Shown one piece after another: positions 2,415 through 16,091 of a DNA stretch of 27,087 nucleotides. The translations under genes were made by a program, and so were the position numbers. Every line of letters starts with the position of its first letter. The first letter of the stretch is position 1. The notes below the pieces were generated by a model, which made no database searches, was not told the DNA's origin, and saw only the letters and a program-made list of their open reading frames with translations. The DNA comes from a virus. The stretch is from IMG/VR virus record IMGVR_UViG_3300042673_001038, positions 1-27,087 of that record, one strand, 5' to 3'.

Positions 2415-2696
2415 TTACTCCAAAGTTAAGGATTGCCATGTTATTCCCCAATCATTTTTTGTCTTGTGGCTAGAAAACTCTTTTGATATTTCCCCATTTT
2501 CCAAATATACTCCACCCCAGACACCCCATTCTTTTCCAGAAATTCCCACAGAAAAACAATCTTTTCTTACAGGACATGCTGAGCACATTAAGTCTACGGC
2601 AGGTCTTAATAGTTCATCTTCTTCATACTTATCAAAAAATACATTTGTATCATAATCAAGGCATGCAGCATTGTCTTTCCATTTAAACTTATTCAT
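2415..2696 (-). CDS. whiB: WhiB-like iron-sulfur transcription regulator
   Basis: 93 residues with the four cysteines of the WhiB family: C12, C38, C41 and C47 in C-x25-C-x2-C-x5-C spacing, followed by the G(V/I)WGG turn (GVWGGV, 58-63). WhiB-like proteins bind a [4Fe-4S] cluster and act with the principal sigma factor to change transcription. They occur in Actinobacteria and their phages, which makes this the best host marker in the window. Mycobacteriophage TM4 WhiB is a known case of a phage WhiB that alters host gene expression. The C-terminus is short and has no clear AT-hook, so DNA binding would depend on partner proteins. It is inside the operon, one base upstream of the next gene. 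Confidence 0.93.
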   Translation of the reverse strand: MNKFKWKDNAACLDYDTNVFFDKYEEDELLRPAVDLMCSACPVRKDCFSVGISGKEWGVWGGVYLENGEISKEFSSHKTKNDWGITWQSLTLE

Positions 2697-4661: not shown

Positions 4662-4946
4662 TTAGACCCAATACTTAATTATAGCAGTTGCTGCAAGAAT
4701 TGACCAGATTATATTAAACCAAATAATTGTTGGTAATGTTTTTACTGTTGATGACCAAATTAAAGATAAACTGGTTATTAGTGCAAAGATGTATAGCCAC
4801 CAAAACTGTACACCAAAAATAAGACCTGGAATAATAATTGCTGCCTTGGTCATAAAAGCAAAGAACTCTACCGTATTTGGGAGGTTCCAATAAGATTTAT
4901 GCCTCATTGTCTTTAGAGCATTAATCCACTCTGTTCTAAATTTCAT
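4662..4946 (-). CDS. Hypothetical multi-pass membrane protein (94 aa)
   Basis: 94 residues from ATG 4946, which overlaps the halogenase TGA (ATGA) and follows GGAGGG at six bases; a longer frame starting at 4982 lacks such a site. Three or so hydrophobic segments are visible: AAIIIPGLIFGVQFWWLYIF, then ALITSLSLIW, and IIWFNIIWSILAATAII near the end. The N-terminus is cytoplasm-like (EWINALKTMRHKSYW). No family recognised. Its place directly after the halogenase and before the nuclease suggests co-translation with the halogenase. Confidence 0.68.
   Translation of the reverse strand: MKFRTEWINALKTMRHKSYWNLPNTVEFFAFMTKAAIIIPGLIFGVQFWWLYIFALITSLSLIWSSTVKTLPTIIWFNIIWSILAATAIIKYWV
4678..4706 (-). 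promoter_or_regulatory. Candidate internal promoter upstream of the nuclease gene
   Basis: TGCTATAAT at 4686-4678 is a perfect extended -10. Seventeen bases upstream TGGTCA (4706-4701) matches the -35 consensus at four of six positions. It lies inside the end of the preceding coding region and 28 bases before the nuclease ATG, so chance occurrence in an AT-rich coding sequence is possible. Confidence 0.45.
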
Positions 4947-6487
4947 TTTAATCCCTCCAAAAATTGCCTGTGATCTACACATTCTGACACTTTGTAGTCT
5001 TGATATTTTTTGTAATAGTCATACATATCAACACCCTTTTTATAATCTGCAGAATTTTCTATATATGCTTTTGCAATATCTTTATTAATTGTGTTGTGTG
5101 CAGAGCCTACAAAGGTCCAACTATTTGATGACCAGTGCTCTCCAGAGTCAAACTTGTTTGGAAGTCTGACCTTCCACTTGCTAATTTTTTCTTGCAGATC
5201 TTTTGGTGCATTCTCATATGAAAACTTTTTCCAAAACTCTGTATCATTTCTTAAAGTCATATAATGAAAATATATAAATTCAGAAATATTATTGTTCATA
5301 CTAACTATGTTCTTGTTAAACTCTTGTCTTATCTCTTTTGAGTTTTCAAATAGCCATAGGGGATTGTCAAATATTTGTGTCAACTCTACAATGCTAACCC
5401 AGATCGATGTTGCTTCTAGTGGCTCAACAAAGTTTGCTGCAAGACCTACTGCCACACAGTTATTAATCCAAGGTTCTTCGTAGCATCCAGCATTGAACTT
5501 AAACCCACCCTTATCTTTTCTTGGATAGGTTGGCTCATACCCTAAAAATTCTTCTATCTCTTTAACTGCTTCTTCTTCAGAGATAAGTGATGAGTCGTAT
5601 ACATACCCGCAACCAAACCTATTCTGTAGTGGGATCTTCCAGATCCACCCGTATTTCATGGCAATTGCTTCTGTGTAGGATGGAATCTTGTCTGTCATCT
5701 CAACAAAAAATGGAAGAGCAGAATCTACTGGAAGGAAATCTTTATAACTTTTCCATTTAGCGTCATATACTTTTCCAATTATTAGTCTGTGAAATCCGCT
5801 ACAATCAAAAACAAAATCACAGATAATCTTTTCATCATTTTCTAAAGTTAAACTATTTACATAGTTATCTTTATCTAGTGAAACATTTTTTATTGTGCCA
5901 TCAACTACTTTAATTCCTCTTTTTATTCCTATTTCTTTAAGTCTATTCGCTAGTTTGGTAGCATTAAAATGTATAGAAACATTTCCTATTTTTTTATAAT
6001 CATCTATGGGATCTTTTTTAGATACAAATCCAAAATCTCTCTTGTTTGCTTCCAAAGTGAATGGGACCTTGTTGGCCTCTGAAATTTTTTCTGTGAAGTC
6101 TATCTTCTTTACACTATCATTTAAAGCAATACTTGCTGCAATAAGAGGGCTATTAGAAAGATACCTGTCGTACACAGCATCAAAGCCAAGGGACCTATCT
6201 GTTGTAGAAAAACCATGGTAATAAAACTCTCCATCATTATTCCAATTTGTAAACTTGATTCCATTTTTAATAGTTGCATCACAATTTTTTATTAGGTCAG
6301 ATAAAGGAATATTTAAATGGTCAAAGAAGTCTGCAAGGTATGGGGTAGACCCTTCTCCTGCTCCCAAGATTCCTATTTCTGTTGACTCTATAACTGTTAT
6401 GTTTAGATCTGGGTATGACCTTTGTGCTTTGAGGGCAGTAAGCCAACCAGCACTTCCGCCACCGACAATAACTATATTCTTTGTCAT
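4943..6487 (-). CDS. Flavin-dependent tryptophan-type halogenase
   Basis: 514 residues from ATG 6487. A further ATG at 6502 would add five residues, but GGGGAAG precedes 6487 at good spacing and 6487 forms a TAATG overlap with the upstream stop. All family hallmarks are visible: the FAD-binding VGGGSAGW near the N-terminus, IGILGAGEGSTP, the active-site lysine in ATIKNGIKFTNW (K74; K79 in the longer form, aligned with PrnA K79), the WxWxIP signature (WIWKIP, about 281-286) and FVEPLE (about 353-358). This family uses FADH2, O2 and halide to make HOCl or HOBr, which the lysine passes to an aromatic carbon. Members act on free tryptophan, indoles, pyrroles or phenols. A phage homologue, the cyanophage enzyme VirX1, is known to halogenate many small aromatics. 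The substrate here is not readable. No dedicated flavin reductase is visible. Confidence 0.93.
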   Translation of the reverse strand: MTKNIVIVGGGSAGWLTALKAQRSYPDLNITVIESTEIGILGAGEGSTPYLADFFDHLNIPLSDLIKNCDATIKNGIKFTNWNNDGEFYYHGFSTTDRSLGFDAVYDRYLSNSPLIAASIALNDSVKKIDFTEKISEANKVPFTLEANKRDFGFVSKKDPIDDYKKIGNVSIHFNATKLANRLKEIGIKRGIKVVDGTIKNVSLDKDNYVNSLTLENDEKIICDFVFDCSGFHRLIIGKVYDAKWKSYKDFLPVDSALPFFVEMTDKIPSYTEAIAMKYGWIWKIPLQNRFGCGYVYDSSLISEEEAVKEIEEFLGYEPTYPRKDKGGFKFNAGCYEEPWINNCVAVGLAANFVEPLEATSIWVSIVELTQIFDNPLWLFENSKEIRQEFNKNIVSMNNNISEFIYFHYMTLRNDTEFWKKFSYENAPKDLQEKISKWKVRLPNKFDSGEHWSSNSWTFVGSAHNTINKDIAKAYIENSADYKKGVDMYDYYKKYQDYKVSECVDHRQFLEGLK

Positions 6488-6690
6488 TATTTTCTTCCCC
6501 ATTTAACTTTGTTCCAACCACGCTCATGGAAGTAATAAAGGATTGTTTTTGTAACTACCTCGAAACTTGCGATTGCACCTGCTGTAACTGGTTCTTTAGT
6601 TATGATCCAGGATATAATAAATGTATCTGCTGTTCCAATTATACGCCAGGTAATAGCCTTTAGTGCTGATCTTGCTTTGGTTACTGTCAT
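6487..6690 (-). CDS. DUF2061 membrane protein, copy 1
   Basis: 67 residues from ATG 6690; an upstream GTG exists, but GGAG is correctly spaced only for the ATG. The sequence SALKAITWRIIGTADTFIIS, ending TKTILYYFHERGWNKVKWGR, is the DUF2061 pattern: a basic start, two membrane segments and a HER-W...WG end. DUF2061 genes are, as I recall, often next to sulfate-activation genes such as cysC; here the upstream neighbour is in fact an APS-kinase fusion 45 bases away. The stop overlaps the halogenase ATG. Biochemical role unknown. Confidence 0.85.
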   Translation of the reverse strand: MTVTKARSALKAITWRIIGTADTFIISWIITKEPVTAGAIASFEVVTKTILYYFHERGWNKVKWGRK

Positions 6691-6735
6691 GATGGCCACT
6701 CCATATTATTTTCTTTAGTGGTCCAGTTCCAGACC

Positions 6736-7497
6736 TTAGATACCCATCTCTTTACGTTTTTGCGTAGCCGATATAGCATGAATGTCTGCCCCCAAATCTA
6801 CTTGTTCAATTTTATATCCTACATCTCTACCATAAACAATGTTGGTAATGTTAGGTAGTCTTAATACTAATGCGCCATCCATAAAATCGTCTTTGGCAAT
6901 ATATTCTTTTACCTGATCGAACTTAAGAGGATCTTTTTCGCTTGTATTGTAGGTATTGCGGACTCCAAGAAGAACTTGGTCAGTTCTCTTGCCAGCCTCC
7001 TTGTAAAGGGCGTGGTGCCCCTCGTGCCATGGCTGGTACCTACCCAGCATAAGAGTTGTAGGTGCAGACCAGTCATGTAGTTTAAACTGATTAATGATTA
7101 CCGATGCCTTTTCATTTGCATCCCATTCATGGCTTATAAAAGCAATGTCATAGTTTGTTGGCATTTCAAACATCTTGTTGGTGTCTTCAAATCTTCCTTC
7201 TTCAATTGTGTTCATGAATACCAAAATATCTGGCTTGCCAAACGCAGCACGAGTTAAATCTGTTGGACATACAAAATCTACAATTACTGGTGCTACACCC
7301 TGCTTAGCAATAAGTCTTGCCATATCACCCATGCGTCGTGCTTGCTCAATCCTGTCTTCAGGGCTAAACCCTAAATCTGAATTTACGGTTGCACGAACCT
7401 CATCTGCATTTAGATGAATAGCATTAATTCTTTCTTTGAGTGCCTTGGCTAACTCTGTCTTTCCTGAACCTGGAAGACCTATAATCTGAATAATCAT
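6736..7497 (-). CDS. APS-kinase-like / HxGH nucleotidyltransferase fusion
   Basis: 253 residues with two domains. Residues 1-140 resemble adenylylsulfate kinase (CysC): P-loop GLPGSGKT (7-14), LNADEVR (29-35) and DLGFSPEDRIEQARRMG (41-57), the CysC hallmark. Residues about 146-253 are a nucleotidyltransferase of the NadM/NadR/cytidylyltransferase type, with GRYQPWHEGHHALY (HxGH at 158-161) and ISATQKR (242-248). APS kinase makes PAPS, the donor for sulfotransferases, one of which lies two genes upstream. The second domain may adenylylate or cytidylylate a small molecule; it does not carry the QxRNPxHxxH motif typical of ATP sulfurylase. A kinase acting on another substrate remains possible. 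It overlaps the oxygenase gene by four bases. Confidence 0.85.
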   Translation of the reverse strand: MIIQIIGLPGSGKTELAKALKERINAIHLNADEVRATVNSDLGFSPEDRIEQARRMGDMARLIAKQGVAPVIVDFVCPTDLTRAAFGKPDILVFMNTIEEGRFEDTNKMFEMPTNYDIAFISHEWDANEKASVIINQFKLHDWSAPTTLMLGRYQPWHEGHHALYKEAGKRTDQVLLGVRNTYNTSEKDPLKFDQVKEYIAKDDFMDGALVLRLPNITNIVYGRDVGYKIEQVDLGADIHAISATQKRKEMGI

Positions 7498-8057
7498 TTT
7501 TCACCTATCTCTGTGTTTGGCATAATGTCAATTAACAAATGCACTCTGTCTATTTCACTACCATTATTTACATAGTGGGTTCTTGAGTTGTTTATTTCCC
7601 AACATTCTCCAGCACCCATCTTAACCCTATCGTCCCCTACACCAAAGAATACCCTATCCGAAGTAACTACTGGGATATGGTTTCTTCTTGAAAGCATAAG
7701 GTAGTCTCCTGCATCATGATGATGTGCTATATCTTGACCTGCTTTTAACTTAATCAAAAGTACCATACCTCTGACACCCTTGTGGATTCTTTCAAGGTCT
7801 GAGATTATTGGCTCAAGAATTTCAAGCAGTCCAGTGTCATTAGATGTTTTCTGAGTATAAAATTTTTCTCCTTCTTTCCACATAAGATCTGCGGTATAGA
7901 CAAAGTATGAGTTAGTATCCTTATGAACATAGTAGTTGTCTTGTCGTGATGTATTAATAAACCACTCGTCAGAAAAACTATCTATATATTTTCTGATGGG
8001 TTCAACATCATACCTACTGTGTTGCTTAAAATTAAAGTCTTCCAGTGTCTTTCTCAT
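7494..8057 (-). CDS. Aspartyl/asparaginyl beta-hydroxylase-like 2-oxoglutarate/Fe(II) oxygenase
   Basis: 187 residues. The double-stranded beta-helix markers are in the right order: AHHHDAGDYL (111-120), RRNHIPVVTSDRVFFGVG (124-141), GECWEINNSRTHYVNN (150-165) and DRVHLLIDI (170-178). The pattern H-x-D near 113-115, H161 and R171 fits iron and 2-oxoglutarate ligands of the AspH/asparaginyl hydroxylase family. Such enzymes hydroxylate amino-acid side chains in proteins, free amino acids or peptide intermediates. Overlaps of four bases with both neighbours tie it to the APS-kinase fusion and the sulfotransferase. Substrate unknown. Confidence 0.85.
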   Translation of the reverse strand: MRKTLEDFNFKQHSRYDVEPIRKYIDSFSDEWFINTSRQDNYYVHKDTNSYFVYTADLMWKEGEKFYTQKTSNDTGLLEILEPIISDLERIHKGVRGMVLLIKLKAGQDIAHHHDAGDYLMLSRRNHIPVVTSDRVFFGVGDDRVKMGAGECWEINNSRTHYVNNGSEIDRVHLLIDIMPNTEIGEK

Positions 8058-8638
8058 CTTGCCTCCAGGGTCTGATTAAAATCTTTAGAATATCCAAAGT
8101 TAATAAAGTCAGAACTGTAAAAGTCCTGAACCATATTTATTTCTTTATCAGTATAGTCTTCTATATACGATTCTACCACATAGTTGCCTACATTGTAAAA
8201 TCCAAGTTCCCAGCCAAGTTCATCCTCTAACTCTTTTAGGTTTTCAAACTTATAAAGTCTTTCAACCTGGAGATTATCTTGGTCCATAATATAAAAAGAT
8301 TGGGGTATGTGAAGCAGTGGGCTTATTGTAGATATTTTCCCCTGCTTAATATTATCTAAGTACTGTGAAAAAGAGATGTCTGTTTGATTAGTTTTATTGT
8401 ATTGCTTATAGCAACTGTAGGTTCTTGTGTAGGGGTTTCTTACAACAGAAAAAGAGAAGACTCTATCGTCTATTATGTTTGCTTCTTTTAAATACGAGTA
8501 TGGATCATGATGCCTTGGCCATTCTCTTTTCCAGTTGTCTAAATTATTTTCATCTAATATTTTAGAAATTGAAGATCCTGCAGTCTTTGGTATATGAACA
8601 AATAGTATTGAGTTATAATCTTTTTGATTAATTATCAT
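8054..8638 (-). CDS. PAPS-dependent sulfotransferase (Sulfotransfer_2-like)
   Basis: 194 residues from ATG 8638; an upstream GTG lacks a Shine-Dalgarno sequence, while GAGG precedes the ATG. The 5'-phosphosulfate loop is FVHIPKTAGSSI (13-24) and the 3'-phosphate-binding segment is VVRNPYTRTYSCY (65-77). KFENLKELEDELG and the end segment DFINFGYSKDF are also typical. The family moves sulfate from PAPS to hydroxyl or amino groups of sugars, lipids or small molecules. It is rather short but retains both cofactor motifs. No signal peptide or membrane anchor is seen, so the target should be cytoplasmic. It sits next to the oxygenase and two genes before the APS-kinase fusion, a coherent sulfation set. 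Confidence 0.85.
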   Translation of the reverse strand: MIINQKDYNSILFVHIPKTAGSSISKILDENNLDNWKREWPRHHDPYSYLKEANIIDDRVFSFSVVRNPYTRTYSCYKQYNKTNQTDISFSQYLDNIKQGKISTISPLLHIPQSFYIMDQDNLQVERLYKFENLKELEDELGWELGFYNVGNYVVESYIEDYTDKEINMVQDFYSSDFINFGYSKDFNQTLEAR

Positions 8639-9467
8639 GATGTTCAGCCTCACTGTTTATTTCTTTAACAAGTTTATGAACCATCATGTCATTATTTTGG
8701 TTCCATGCTGTGTCCAGATTAGTAGTATTGGTGAATATTAGTAGGTCAGTTATCCCTTCATCCTTGAGATCAAATATTTGTTGTTTTACTTTTTGATAGT
8801 TTCCAACTATTGACCAACCCAAGAACCTAGGATTAAATACAGAGGTCTTTTCTTTATACTCTTTAATCTCTTCATCTGATTCTAAGATAGTTACATTGGC
8901 ACTAACCATTCGATTTTTAATACCATCAAACTTTTCTGGATTTTCTCTGTAGGTATCTAGCATACACAAGGACGTTCCATTAAACATTCTTACAGTCTCT
9001 AGAGAATAGTCAGAAAAACCACTAAAGACCATTGGTGGTCTTGCTTTTGTTGGACAATACAATTTGTACATGTTTACAAAATTTCTTAAGTAGGTGGTTC
9101 TTTTTTGAATGCTATCTACTGATTCTGATTCTCCAAAAATATCAAATTCTAAATCTGGCTCATCTTCTCTTTGATGAAAATCTCCAGCAACCCAATTAAA
9201 TACAAGCCTATTACTGTCTATTTGATCATATCCTATAGTCATCATTGCAGCATACTGAGCACTTACGTGATATGGTCTTAAAGCAATCATATACTTTAGT
9301 TTATGGCCTGGAGTAAGTGCAGCAGCAGACTTTATAAAATAGTCTGCTTGTGCTGAATGAAAGGTAAGTAATACTGAATCATATCCAGAGTCTTCTAGCC
9401 TATGAGAAAGATCTTTTAGTCCCTTTACATCCTTATGTTGATCTCTCAACATATAGTGAATCTTCAT
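8628..9467 (-). CDS. Luciferase-like flavin-dependent monooxygenase (LLM), copy 2
   Basis: 279 residues. The family core is KYMIALRPYHVSAQYAAMM (58-76), then DQIDSNRLVFNWVAGDF (81-97), matching the SsuD/luciferase pattern and copy 1 at 886-1767. The N-terminus MKIHYMLRDQHKDVKGLKDL and the mid-part RLEDSGYDSVLLTF fit a complete TIM barrel start. The end segment DEGITDLLIFTN corresponds to the C-terminal strand and helix near the active site. It lies two bases after the DUF7455 gene and overlaps the sulfotransferase start by 11 bases. It needs reduced flavin from the host. Substrate unknown. Confidence 0.84.
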   Translation of the reverse strand: MKIHYMLRDQHKDVKGLKDLSHRLEDSGYDSVLLTFHSAQADYFIKSAAALTPGHKLKYMIALRPYHVSAQYAAMMTIGYDQIDSNRLVFNWVAGDFHQREDEPDLEFDIFGESESVDSIQKRTTYLRNFVNMYKLYCPTKARPPMVFSGFSDYSLETVRMFNGTSLCMLDTYRENPEKFDGIKNRMVSANVTILESDEEIKEYKEKTSVFNPRFLGWSIVGNYQKVKQQIFDLKDEGITDLLIFTNTTNLDTAWNQNNDMMVHKLVKEINSEAEHHDN

Positions 9468-9890: not shown

Positions 9891-9998
9891 TTACTTCTTC
9901 TTTTTTGCTTTTACTGTCCAGACTGGTGCATTGAGATTGTCTCCGCCCCACTCATATCCAAGTGTTTTAACAACAAACCTAATAAATTTAATACGCAT
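9891..9998 (-). CDS. Hypothetical micro-protein (35 aa)
   Basis: A 35-residue ORF, MRIKFIRFVVKTLGYEWGGD, then NLNAPVWTVKAKKKK. Its ATG overlaps the stop of the DUF2061 gene (TAATG) and AAGG lies upstream, which supports translation. It is basic and may associate with membrane or nucleic acid. Unrecognised. Confidence 0.55.
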   Translation of the reverse strand: MRIKFIRFVVKTLGYEWGGDNLNAPVWTVKAKKKK

Positions 9999-10216
9999 TA
10001 TTTTACCTTGTGTCCAAACTTTGCCCAGACTCTCTCATGTAGGTAATAGAATGTCATTTCTAATGCCATGTATGAAAGTGCATATAGTCCAACATACTCC
10101 CACTCAGCCTCACCATAAATTATATGGCTTGCTGCAAATAAAATTCCAGCAACAAAAGTAAAATGTACAAATGGCCAACTGATTGTTTTTAGTACTGATT
10201 TCTTTTTAGATTCCAT
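9998..10216 (-). CDS. DUF2061-like membrane protein, copy 2
   Basis: 72 residues: SVLKTISWPFVHFTFVAGIL, a second hydrophobic segment VGLYALSYMALEMTFYYLHE, and RVWAKFGHK at the end. The basic N-terminus, two helices and HER-W...G ending match DUF2061 and the copy at 6487-6690, although the GT-x-DTF element is replaced. It is joined to the endolysin by TAATG overlap. A role in lysis (for example as a holin partner) is possible from its place, but nothing in the sequence proves it. Confidence 0.72.
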   Translation of the reverse strand: MESKKKSVLKTISWPFVHFTFVAGILFAASHIIYGEAEWEYVGLYALSYMALEMTFYYLHERVWAKFGHKVK

Positions 10217-13037: not shown

Positions 13038-13249
13038 TATTTTTCTCCTTTTCCTGCAAAGTATCCACCAATAATTCCTATTAGTCCTACTAGTGCATTT
13101 TGTACTAAGGCAATTGCATCTGAGTTAGTTGAAAACTTTTCTCCTGATGTTGCCTGTTGCATTAACATTGAAGAGTATTCTCCAATAACTACAAGGCCTA
13201 TAAAGCCTAATATTCCTAGGGTAATTACCCACATTAGTTTATCTTTCAT
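13037..13249 (-). CDS. Small two-pass membrane protein
   Basis: 70 residues: helix 1 LMWVITLGILGFIGLVVIGE, an exposed loop SSMLMQQATSGEKFSTNSDA, helix 2 LVQNALVGLIGIIGGYFAG and KGEK. Class II holin-like topology. The start overlaps the preceding TGA (ATGA). Family unknown; it is a holin or antiholin candidate beside 12753-13037. Confidence 0.66.
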   Translation of the reverse strand: MKDKLMWVITLGILGFIGLVVIGEYSSMLMQQATSGEKFSTNSDAIALVQNALVGLIGIIGGYFAGKGEK

Positions 13250-13419
13250 TCGTCATCATCTCTATTTCTAATCGGATAAGTTATTGCCCAAACAATTAAT
13301 GTACCTATAATTGCATAGCCCACTATCGTCTTTGCGGAACCGTCTAGGACTACCCAGGCAATAAACATACCTAAAAGTGTCCACAATTGATCTATCATAT
13401 CTCTTACTATTTTCATCAT
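13246..13419 (-). CDS. Small membrane protein (57 aa)
   Basis: 57 residues: MMKIVRDMIDQLWTLLGMFI, then AWVVLDGSAKTIVGYAIIGT and LIVWAITYPIRNRDDDE. Two hydrophobic segments and a charged acidic end are seen. AAGGAG precedes the first of two adjacent ATG codons, so the first (13419) is chosen. It overlaps both neighbours by four bases (ATGA), which strongly supports translation. No family recognised. Confidence 0.68.
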   Translation of the reverse strand: MMKIVRDMIDQLWTLLGMFIAWVVLDGSAKTIVGYAIIGTLIVWAITYPIRNRDDDE

Positions 13420-16091
13420 GGTCTTCTCCTTACTCCCCTGGAATCGCCAACGGCTCCTCCTCCACCTGATCCTCCACCAGAACTTCCTCCTGATGTAGAT
13501 CCTCCAGTGGATCCTGCTGCTGCAGCAACAGCATTAATTGCTGCTCCTGCTGCGACAACTGTTGCAACAACCATATCTGTTGCTTCTTCTCTTTCTCCTT
13601 CAGTCATATCTGCACCAATACTTCCAATTGCAGCAAGTGCTGCTCCTGGGTCTGTAAATGCTGCTTCTAATAATGCTCCAGGATCTGTAACTAATTCTAC
13701 ATTTGCAGCAACTTCTGCAGTAATGACAAGGGCTTCTCCGCTTTCAGATGTTCTAACTTCAACAGGAGTTTCTTTTGGAAGATCTTTATACTCAATTCCA
13801 GCATTTTGAATTTGTTCTGCTGTAACATTTTCTCCAGAAGATATTGCTGCTGCTACAACTACTGTTGCAATTAAATCTTTTTGCTCAGAGGTGAGTGGTT
13901 CATCTGATTTTTTAATTGCATCTACAATATTTTTAACTTCTTCTTGAGTTACTTTTCCATCTGAATTAACATTGTCTAAAACCTTCTTAGCATCTTCTGC
14001 TGTAATTTTTCCACTTGCTAAAGCCTTTTCTTCTGCAGCCTTAGCATCTGCTTCTGCTTTAAGTCTTGCAGCCTCAGCCTCTTTAGCCTTTTGCTCTGCT
14101 AATAGTTTTGCTTCAAGCGCAGCCTTATCTTTAGCAATCTGCTCTAATCTTTCTTTTTCTGCCTTAGACTTTGCTTCTTCAGCAGCAATTCTTTCTCTTT
14201 CAATACGAGCATCCTCTTCTGCTTTTGCTTTAGCCTCTGCTTCTGCTTTTAATCGTGCTTCTTCTGCAAGTCTATCTTTTTCTCTTTGTTCTTCCGCTGC
14301 TTTTTCAGCAGCAATTCTTTCTGCTTCAAGTCTTGCCTCTTCTTCAGCCTTTGCTTTGGCTTCTGCTTCTGCCTTGAGTCTGGCTTCTTCAGCAAGTCTT
14401 GCATCTTCTTCCGCTTTTAGTCTAGCCTCTTCCGCTGCCTTTGCTTCTGCTTCTGCCTTCAGACGAGCCTCTTCTGCTGCTTTGGCCTCTGCTTCTGCTT
14501 TAGCCTTTGCAATTTCTGCTGCTACTCTTTCTTCCTCTGCTTTCTTTGCAGCCAACTCAGCAGCAACTCTTTCCTCTTCAGCCTTCTTTGCTGCAGCCTC
14601 TGCTGCTAAACGATCTGCTTCCGCCTTGGCTGCTGCTAATGCAGCAAGCCTATCTTTTTCTGCTTGTTCTGCTGCTGCCTTTTCTGCAGCAATGCGATCT
14701 GCTTCTGCTTTGGCTGCGGCTTCCGCAGCAAGGCGATCTTGTTCTGCTTTAATTGTAGCCTGACGCTCTGCTTCAACTCTTGCTGCTTCAGCAATTGCTG
14801 CTAATCTTGCAGCCTCTGCTGCTAACGCAGCCTGTCTTGCTGCTTCTTGTTCTGCAGCAATTCTTTCTTGCTCAGCAATTGCTGCTAATCTTGCAGCCTC
14901 TGCTGCTAACGCAGCCTGTCTTGCTGCTTCTTGTTCTGCAGCAATTCTTGCATTCTCTGCTGCAAGTGCTGCTAATCTTTCTGCTTCAACTCTTGCTGCT
15001 TCCTGTTGCGCTGCTAACAACGCTGCTGCTTCTGCTTCAAGCCTAGCAACTTCTGCCAATCTAGCAACTTCTGCTAGTCTAGCAATCTCTGCAAGCCTTG
15101 CCACTTCTGCTAGTCTTGCTATTTCTGCTAACCTTGCTTCTTCTGCAGCAATAGCAGCGAGTCTTGCGTTCTCTGCATCAATAGCAGCCTGTGCTGCTGC
15201 TTGCTCTGCTGCAATTTCCTCTGCAGTCTTTCCAATTTTTAATGTAACAACATTTGAGTTTTCAGAGTATAGTGCTAATGTATCATTGTCTGATCTAATA
15301 TGAAATGACCATACAGTCCCGCTTGGCATCAAACTTTCAAGTAGAGAGTGATCAATTGTTATTGTTGTATTTAAAGAATTAGGTCCACCAACATTTCCAG
15401 TTGCAATTCCCCATCCGTTACAGCCAGAACAATTAAAACTTATTGCATATCTTTCTGGCTGAGTGTTACCAGTATCTGGGGCTTCCCAAGTCAGAGTTGT
15501 TGTAGTTGCGCCATCTACTACCGTAAGGTTTCTTGGAGCACCTATTGTTTTTACTACTGGGGCTGCTTGTGAAGTAAAGGCTGATGATGGGATGATACCC
15601 ATAGATCCAGATTGATCCCAATATAAGAATACGTTTGCTCCCCCACCATTTTCATAGTACATTAATTCTATGGTTTTTGGAACTCCTGCTGTAAAAGATA
15701 CTGGAGCAGAGGTTGATCCTCCACCACCCTTGTCAACCCAGTCATCTGTTATTAATGCTCCATCAATGTAGAGCCTGGTACCGTCATCTCCTGTAGCCAT
15801 AAAGGATATGTTTTGAGTAGAATCGCTTCTGATTGAGCCCGTAAAACGTACAATAACGTCCTCTGCTGGGCCACCTAAGACACTACCGCTACCCCATTGG
15901 AAGTCAATATTGGGGACAGTGGTCGTAACGACTGGAGAAGCACCCTGTGGGATATATGGAGAAGCATTTTGTCCCAGGACATTATAGACTTGAGCAGTTA
16001 ATCCTTCTGCTGCGTGAGCCTTGTCAACCCCTACAAGCAGGGGAAATAGAGCAAATGATAGTACCAGTACTATGCGTAATAATTTTTTAAT
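13416..16091 (-). CDS. Secreted PA14 - Fn3 - coiled-coil surface or adhesion protein (ATT start proposed)
   Basis: The first ATG (15800) would give 794 residues and cut a PA14 domain. Reading on upstream without a stop to an ATT at 16091 gives 891 residues and a signal peptide (KKLLRIVLVLSFALFPLLV...KAHAA, 1-28). AGGGGG lies before the ATT. Domains: PA14 about 30-175 (SFMATGDDGTRLYIDG, NVFLYWD), Fn3 about 184-286 (APRNLTV, YAISFNCSG, LYSENSNVVTL), an Ala/Glu/Arg coiled coil 288-692, an EF-hand/dockerin-like loop NVNSDGKVTQEE near 708-719, and a Gly/Ser-rich tail ending SRGVRRRP. PA14 and Fn3 usually bind sugars or proteins; the coiled coil makes a long rod. It could be a virion fibre, or be secreted to alter the host surface. 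The coiled-coil DNA carries exact repeats. Confidence 0.8.
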   Translation of the reverse strand: MKKLLRIVLVLSFALFPLLVGVDKAHAAEGLTAQVYNVLGQNASPYIPQGASPVVTTTVPNIDFQWGSGSVLGGPAEDVIVRFTGSIRSDSTQNISFMATGDDGTRLYIDGALITDDWVDKGGGGSTSAPVSFTAGVPKTIELMYYENGGGANVFLYWDQSGSMGIIPSSAFTSQAAPVVKTIGAPRNLTVVDGATTTTLTWEAPDTGNTQPERYAISFNCSGCNGWGIATGNVGGPNSLNTTITIDHSLLESLMPSGTVWSFHIRSDNDTLALYSENSNVVTLKIGKTAEEIAAEQAAAQAAIDAENARLAAIAAEEARLAEIARLAEVARLAEIARLAEVARLAEVARLEAEAAALLAAQQEAARVEAERLAALAAENARIAAEQEAARQAALAAEAARLAAIAEQERIAAEQEAARQAALAAEAARLAAIAEAARVEAERQATIKAEQDRLAAEAAAKAEADRIAAEKAAAEQAEKDRLAALAAAKAEADRLAAEAAAKKAEEERVAAELAAKKAEEERVAAEIAKAKAEAEAKAAEEARLKAEAEAKAAEEARLKAEEDARLAEEARLKAEAEAKAKAEEEARLEAERIAAEKAAEEQREKDRLAEEARLKAEAEAKAKAEEDARIERERIAAEEAKSKAEKERLEQIAKDKAALEAKLLAEQKAKEAEAARLKAEADAKAAEEKALASGKITAEDAKKVLDNVNSDGKVTQEEVKNIVDAIKKSDEPLTSEQKDLIATVVVAAAISSGENVTAEQIQNAGIEYKDLPKETPVEVRTSESGEALVITAEVAANVELVTDPGALLEAAFTDPGAALAAIGSIGADMTEGEREEATDMVVATVVAAGAAINAVAAAAGSTGGSTSGGSSGGGSGGGGAVGDSRGVRRRP
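14789..14949 (-). repeat. Two exact 77-bp repeats spaced 84 bp in the coiled-coil region
   Basis: Bases 14789-14865 are repeated without change at 14873-14949, an offset of 84 bases or 28 codons. They encode two copies of AAEQEAARQAALAAEAARL. Because synonymous positions are also identical, the duplication is recent or maintained by recombination. It keeps the heptad frame of the coiled coil. Confidence 0.9.
15043..15132 (-). repeat. Five 18-bp units encoding RLAE(V/I)A repeats
   Basis: Five consecutive 18-base units similar to ctagcaacttctgctagt cover 15043-15132. Each encodes six residues of the type ARLAEV or ARLAEI. The codons vary slightly between units. The six-residue step is not the heptad of a normal coiled coil, so this stretch may form a different helix surface. 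Confidence 0.85.

Follow-up and report, generated by a model that had tools for sequence, protein, structure and literature searches.

The window analysed here is the whole 27,087-base stretch of a viral record. On its minus strand, an open reading frame (ORF) at 6736-7497 encodes a protein of 253 amino acids in which a kinase domain is fused to a nucleotidyltransferase (NTase) with an HxGH motif. The protein, its sequence features and its neighbours are listed by position, with the evidence for each in parentheses.

4943-6502, minus strand: tryptophan halogenase-like protein, flavin-dependent (Pfam 4.6e-101)
6487-6699, minus strand: DUF2061 small membrane protein, downstream of the kinase-NTase gene (Pfam 5.2e-23)
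6736-7497, minus strand: kinase-NTase protein, 253 amino acids
6739-7077, minus strand: HxGH nucleotidyltransferase domain, residues 141-253 (NadM-type by hhalign; a separate gene in other genomes)
6754-6774, minus strand: ISATxxR motif of HxGH adenylyltransferases, residues 242-248 (family alignments)
6814-6834, minus strand: signature YGR-x-VGY/W, residues 222-228, in place of a longer NadM segment (family alignments)
7015-7026, minus strand: HxGH catalytic motif, H158-H161, within GRYQPWHEGH (invariant positions)
7078-7497, minus strand: APS-kinase-like P-loop domain, residues 1-140 (Pfam, PDB profile matches, Foldseek)
7342-7404, minus strand: APS-contact block D32..R35..F44..R49..Q52 (PAPSS1 alignment, family alignment, residue check)
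7456-7479, minus strand: Walker A motif GLPGSGKT, residues 7-14 (invariant in alignment A1 except for the last position, T/S)
7494-8057, minus strand: Fe(II)/2OG oxygenase like aspartyl/asparaginyl hydroxylases, also termed Asp/Arg-hydroxylase-like (Pfam 3.7e-12)
8054-8653, minus strand: PAPS-type sulfotransferase (motifs VHIPKTAGSS and SVVRNPYTRTYS; Sulfotransfer_2 1e-6; PHROG 3347 1.2e-12)
8628-9467, minus strand: LLM flavoprotein, luciferase-like (Pfam 3.5e-3, below cut-off)

The sequence-only reading of this DNA had described a CysC-like kinase (GLPGSGKT, DLGFSPEDRIE) fused to an HxGH nucleotidyltransferase, with a sulfotransferase two genes away and the oxygenase as the sole gene between them. 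Both motifs are present, domain matches agree with both halves (APS_kinase, E 3e-15; CTP_transf_like, just below cut-off, at residues 150-187 with the HxGH motif), and the gene order across 6736-8653 on the minus strand agrees. The sulfotransferase and oxygenase ORFs overlap by 4 bases, as do those of the oxygenase and the kinase.

Relatives of the fused protein occur in about 600 IMG/VR stretches, and full-length homologs are found in isolate phages (39-44% identity) and in bacteria (36-49% identity); the ORF is therefore not a chance one. Over its whole length the protein matches PHROG 10255 (E 3e-63), which is the same family and carries only the label 'kinase', with no substrate.

Neighbours in phage genomes

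Conservation around the gene was read from the best 80 IMG/VR loci, which are 87-100% identical and so not independent, with varied surroundings. In a motif scan, DUF2061 lies directly downstream of the kinase-NTase gene in 68 of these 80 close relatives. A sulfotransferase is found within 3 kb in only seven of the 80. Its adjacency, considered as the main argument for a sulfate-activating enzyme, was therefore dropped as weak when taken alone. The oxygenase is a variable accessory gene across related viral loci, and no CysH was found near the gene in the viral loci. Distant marine phages encode the two halves separately, in one case (L241) with DUF2061 between them. In four Casjensviridae phages (L082-L085) a NADAR gene lies directly upstream of the kinase start and overlaps it (Pfam 4e-26 in L083).

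Several other features of the window were recorded. A second, more divergent DUF2061 gene lies at 9998-10216 (minus strand; Pfam 5.7e-7), and luciferase-like-monooxygenase-like proteins are encoded on the minus strand at 886-1767 and 8628-9467 (1.2e-4 and 3.5e-3, both below the Pfam cut-off). The Trp-halogenase-like gene is an accessory in about 15 related viral loci. At 2415-2696 (minus strand) a Cys-rich protein that looks WhiB-like by eye suggests an actinobacterial host, and at 13416-15800 (minus strand) a protein of 794 amino acids has a long, repetitive middle rich in Ala, Glu and Arg. The same freshwater phage gene block appears at 90% identity on a contig of a Chitinophagaceae metagenome-assembled genome (MAG; L162), which is probably a viral contig binned into the MAG.

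An APS-kinase-like half and a NadM-like half

The N-terminal half is APS-kinase-like by domain, fold and residues. Pfam APS_kinase (PF01583) matches residues 2-85 with 57 bits against a cut-off of 21.1, and APS kinases are the top matches when the kinase half is searched by profile against PDB sequences. The AlphaFold model, built from a 42-sequence alignment (A2), has a mean pLDDT of 91.3 and a pTM of 0.84; all of its top 50 Foldseek matches in the PDB are structures with an APS kinase or APS-kinase-like domain. The possible loss of CysC substrate residues, raised in the sequence-only reading, was addressed by alignment. D32, R35, F44, R49 and Q52 align with D89, R92, F101, R106 and N109 of human PAPSS1 at identical spacing (3, 9, 5, 3), positions that we take to be APS contacts from what is known of APS kinases generally. 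The change from N to Q at Q52 is the only one among them, and 17 aligned representatives from phages and bacteria keep all five residues as in the phage protein, with few exceptions. The mobile lid (KGLYKKAR) is absent from all 17 of these kinases. The phage kinase thus has the P-loop, the D-x2-R-x8-F-x4-R block, the FxxP motif and the fold in common with CysC. It differs from CysC in the one substituted contact, in the missing lid and in its score against the CysC equivalog TIGR00455, which at 59.6 bits lies far below the cut-off of 138.7.

The C-terminal half was said to look like NadM or NadR rather than ATP sulfurylase, and profile comparison bears this out: hhalign gives 99.4% against archaeal NadM and 4.3% against five canonical ATP sulfurylases. 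Direct homology to ATP sulfurylase, an idea drawn from the GRD-x-x-G found in both, was rejected on the latter value, and the 253-residue protein has no Pfam match to the ATP-sulfurylase domain PF01747. The NTase domain spans about 110 residues with near-invariant GR[YFW]QPxHxGH, NP, PN[IV], YGRxVG[YW] and ISAT..R motifs. Its Pfam match to CTP_transf_like, at the HxGH motif, reaches 19.1 bits, slightly below the cut-off of 21. With NadM-type NMN adenylyltransferases it has in common the GRFQPxHxGH, NPF and ISxTxxR motifs. A model of a stand-alone NTase from SAR11 bacteria (pLDDT 85) was considered as a clue to the substrate and set aside, as Foldseek returned only PPAT-, NMNAT- and PanC-like matches, mostly over the first 75 or so residues and with E of at least 2.5e-3. 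Given this NadM-like profile and these weak fold matches, family membership says only 'NadM-like', and the substrate has to be read from the gene contexts of relatives.

The similarity to NadM, together with the NADAR gene upstream in the four Casjensviridae phages, makes NAD salvage the main rival explanation. Under this explanation, the HxGH domain would be an adenylyltransferase for NMN (or another nucleotide or sugar phosphate) and its partner a nucleoside kinase acting, for example, on nicotinamide riboside, as in NadR with the domains reversed. NMNATs are among the best PDB profile matches of the NTase half, the NADAR gene points to NAD or ADP-ribose chemistry, and phages are known to carry NMNAT-type genes (PHROG 3462). 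NadR likewise joins a kinase and an HxGH adenylyltransferase on one chain. However, NadR has its NMNAT first and its ribosylnicotinamide kinase (RNK) second, the opposite of the phage order, and the phage kinase keeps the APS-contact residues and is CysC-like rather than RNK-like. The NTase is also shorter than NadM (about 110 rather than about 170 residues): about 30 of the NadM residues that lie between strand 4 and ISxT, the ARWLAYL..YSGND segment among them, are missing from the hhalign alignment, and the phage family has YGRxVGY instead. Scores against NMNAT models are far below their cut-offs (TIGR01527, 20.6 of 181.2 bits; PRK01153, 25.3 of 127 bits). NAD salvage would moreover leave unexplained the sulfur contexts described below, namely cysHI, aprMBA and sulfotransferase genes, and we regard it as unlikely.

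Sulfur genes beside cellular relatives

A scan for relatives with one genome per species turned up full-length ones in bacteria that include SAR11, Rhizobium and a planctomycete. Five genomes of marine alphaproteobacteria (L177-L181) encode the kinase and the NTase as two genes side by side, within the gene order cysG (tetrapyrrole methylase), cysI (sulfite reductase), cysH (PAPS/APS reductase), DUF2061, kinase, NTase; gene identities were confirmed with Pfam and NCBIfam for L177. The two genes occupy the places in this operon where cysC and ATP sulfurylase genes are expected. PF01747 was not seen in four of the five genomes, and CysN did not score above cut-off in any of them. The fifth, G012, does have a canonical ATP sulfurylase gene, which adjoins a full pyruvate kinase on a different contig (L283, G012:C19). 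The idea that DUF2061 marks sulfate assimilation in general was also considered and dropped. Of 18 cellular loci examined, that of G276 (CysI-CysH-CysC-DUF2061) is the only one that fits; the 18 include the 11 loci whose DUF2061 is closest, and in only one of these does DUF2061 adjoin cys genes. Since DUF2061 is seldom near cys genes outside the kinase-NTase family, its presence supports a link between the phage genes and the operon, not sulfur metabolism as such.

A second context is found in SAR11. Earlier work reported that P. ubique has aprBA and lacks sat and cysDNCHIJ (PMC5069961), and that ATP sulfurylase is missing from most SAR11 (PMC10356861). Among 247 Pelagibacterales genomes, the kinase-NTase family is present in 196, mostly as a kinase gene adjoining an NTase gene, aprA in 198 and a canonical ATP sulfurylase above cut-off in 12. 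The NTase family occurs in 180 of the 197 scorable aprA-positive SAR11 genomes and a canonical ATP sulfurylase in 10; Fisher's test on the SAR11 tallies gives P 3e-17, uncorrected for phylogeny. The order NTase-aprM-aprB-aprA, with no kinase, was seen in five of 40 SAR11 loci read (aprM-like; aprB 3.6e-56; aprA 1.8e-299), and in at least 14 SAR11 genomes the coordinates put the NTase some 1.4 kb from aprA, with both genes on one strand. Most genomes behind these contexts are incomplete MAGs or single-amplified genomes (SAGs). Running backwards, an HxGH enzyme able to link AMP and sulfate would supply the step reported as missing in SAR11, and the NTase relatives likely include the 'missing' ATP sulfurylase of these ocean bacteria.

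The apr operon also bears on a second alternative, in which the kinase alone belongs to the pathway, as an APS kinase using APS from the host, while the HxGH domain would produce some other AMP conjugate or have a regulatory role. The kinase assignment is indeed much stronger than that of the NTase, and phage and virome records are labelled merely cysC or kinase (PMC9611531). The view of the NTase as an unrelated passenger of an APS kinase is nonetheless contradicted by its standing without a kinase in the SAR11 apr operon. The HxGH and ISAT motifs are conserved, and in most genomes checked the NTase replaces, rather than accompanies, canonical sat or cysDN. A role for the kinase alone is accordingly quite improbable.

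Other SAR11 observations concern the surroundings of the kinase-NTase pair. In many other loci (for example L309 and L296) the pair has genes nearby that resemble two other sulfur genes, DddP (DMSP lyase) and MtoX (methanethiol oxidase), with scores under the respective equivalog cut-offs; a Rieske oxygenase and an enoyl-CoA hydratase are encoded there as well. A pyruvate-kinase barrel protein of about 320-355 amino acids lies beside or near the kinase-NTase in L167 and L169-L174 (PF00224, 1.9e-44 in L170), a pairing with pyruvate kinase that recurs in G012 at the canonical ATP sulfurylase. In L174 the fused copy has a second, stand-alone NTase paralog (13110-13517) a few genes away.

The third context is that of sulfotransferases. 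Rhizobium sp. BK376 (L163) encodes Sulfotransfer_2, APS_kinase and NTase domains in a single ORF of 555 amino acids. A sulfotransferase is the next gene in L164, L182 and the SAR11 locus L167, and the divergent neighbour in L434 is a TPR-sulfotransferase. Across ten non-SAR11 genomes that carry the family, two Pfam models count 14 sulfotransferases, of which four, spread over four of the ten genomes, are fused to the family gene or within 2 kb of it, against 0.02 expected within 2 kb (Poisson P 6e-9). In three genomes (G001, G017 and G904) the near or fused sulfotransferase is the only match to the two models.

CysC-like kinases may act on other substrates; the kinase of the Campylobacter CDP-phosphoramidate pathway, for instance, uses a different nucleotide. 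By analogy, the fusion might be a bifunctional enzyme for some other sulfated or phosphorylated nucleotide or glycan precursor, and several SAR11 copies do sit in polysaccharide loci. Recurring neighbours of the CTP-transferase type were not found, however, and those that do recur use APS or PAPS, which makes such a precursor very improbable.

A candidate minimal PAPS synthetase

The cysHI, aprMBA and sulfotransferase contexts have APS or PAPS in common, and it is on this ground that we propose ATP sulfurylase activity for the HxGH domain. With good confidence, the protein is interpreted as a minimal two-domain PAPS synthetase in which a lidless kinase serves as the APS kinase; the phage would thus most likely encode a very small enzyme, unrecognised so far, for converting sulfate to PAPS. 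The sequence-only reading had wavered between a minimal phage supply of PAPS and action on another nucleotide. The former is favoured by the cys, apr and sulfotransferase contexts of distant relatives, while the phage's own sulfotransferase neighbourhood, with its seven loci in 80, adds little.

From the domains, fold, residues and contexts we infer the activities, their direction and their consumers as follows. At the C-terminal HxGH site, ATP and sulfate would give APS and PPi; at the N-terminal P-loop site, the 3'-OH of APS would then be phosphorylated by ATP, yielding PAPS and ADP. Fusion with the kinase would pull the unfavourable sulfurylase step forward. The sulfotransferase two genes upstream is likely a consumer of PAPS, and would probably be the one using it in this phage. 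The stand-alone SAR11 NTase beside aprMBA is proposed to act in the reverse direction, from APS and PPi to ATP and sulfate.

Canonical PAPS synthetases (PAPSS1/2 and bacterial Sat-CysC fusions) likewise combine an APS kinase with an NTase of the HxGH superfamily, and PAPSS1 shares the kinase-first order. They are about 550-630 amino acids long rather than 253, their second domain is of the PF01747 type rather than NadM-like (hhalign 4% for the phage domain against ATP sulfurylases), and the phage kinase differs from theirs in having no lid. The heterodimeric ATP sulfurylase CysDN would have the proposed reaction in common with the HxGH enzyme, which is unrelated to it and has no GTPase or PP-loop domain. 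Two types of ATP sulfurylase are known, Sat/Met3 and CysDN, and we know of no PAPS synthetase architecture smaller than this fusion. On the whole, it is likely that the family represents a third, non-orthologous and NadM-like class of ATP sulfurylase. On its own, in SAR11, this class would complete the oxidation of sulfite through AprBA; paired with a lidless APS kinase, it would replace cysDN or sat and cysC in marine alphaproteobacteria; and in fused form it would be the smallest PAPS synthetase known, present in hundreds of freshwater and marine phages.

Viral 'cysC' has already been listed in earlier work (PMC9611531), and a search of the open literature found no report of an NTase partner to viral cysC or of a third type of ATP sulfurylase. 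If our interpretation holds, what is new is the enzyme class, unrecognised until now, that carries out an already known step of the pathway. The candidate SAR11 protein of about 126 amino acids makes the gap of an APS reductase without an ATP sulfurylase (PMC5069961, PMC10356861) directly testable. If correct, a third ATP sulfurylase would change how sulfate activation is annotated in some of the ocean's most abundant bacteria and would offer enzymology a compact PAPS synthetase. The common phage annotation 'cysC/kinase' would then stand for complete sulfate activation, independent of the host pathway.
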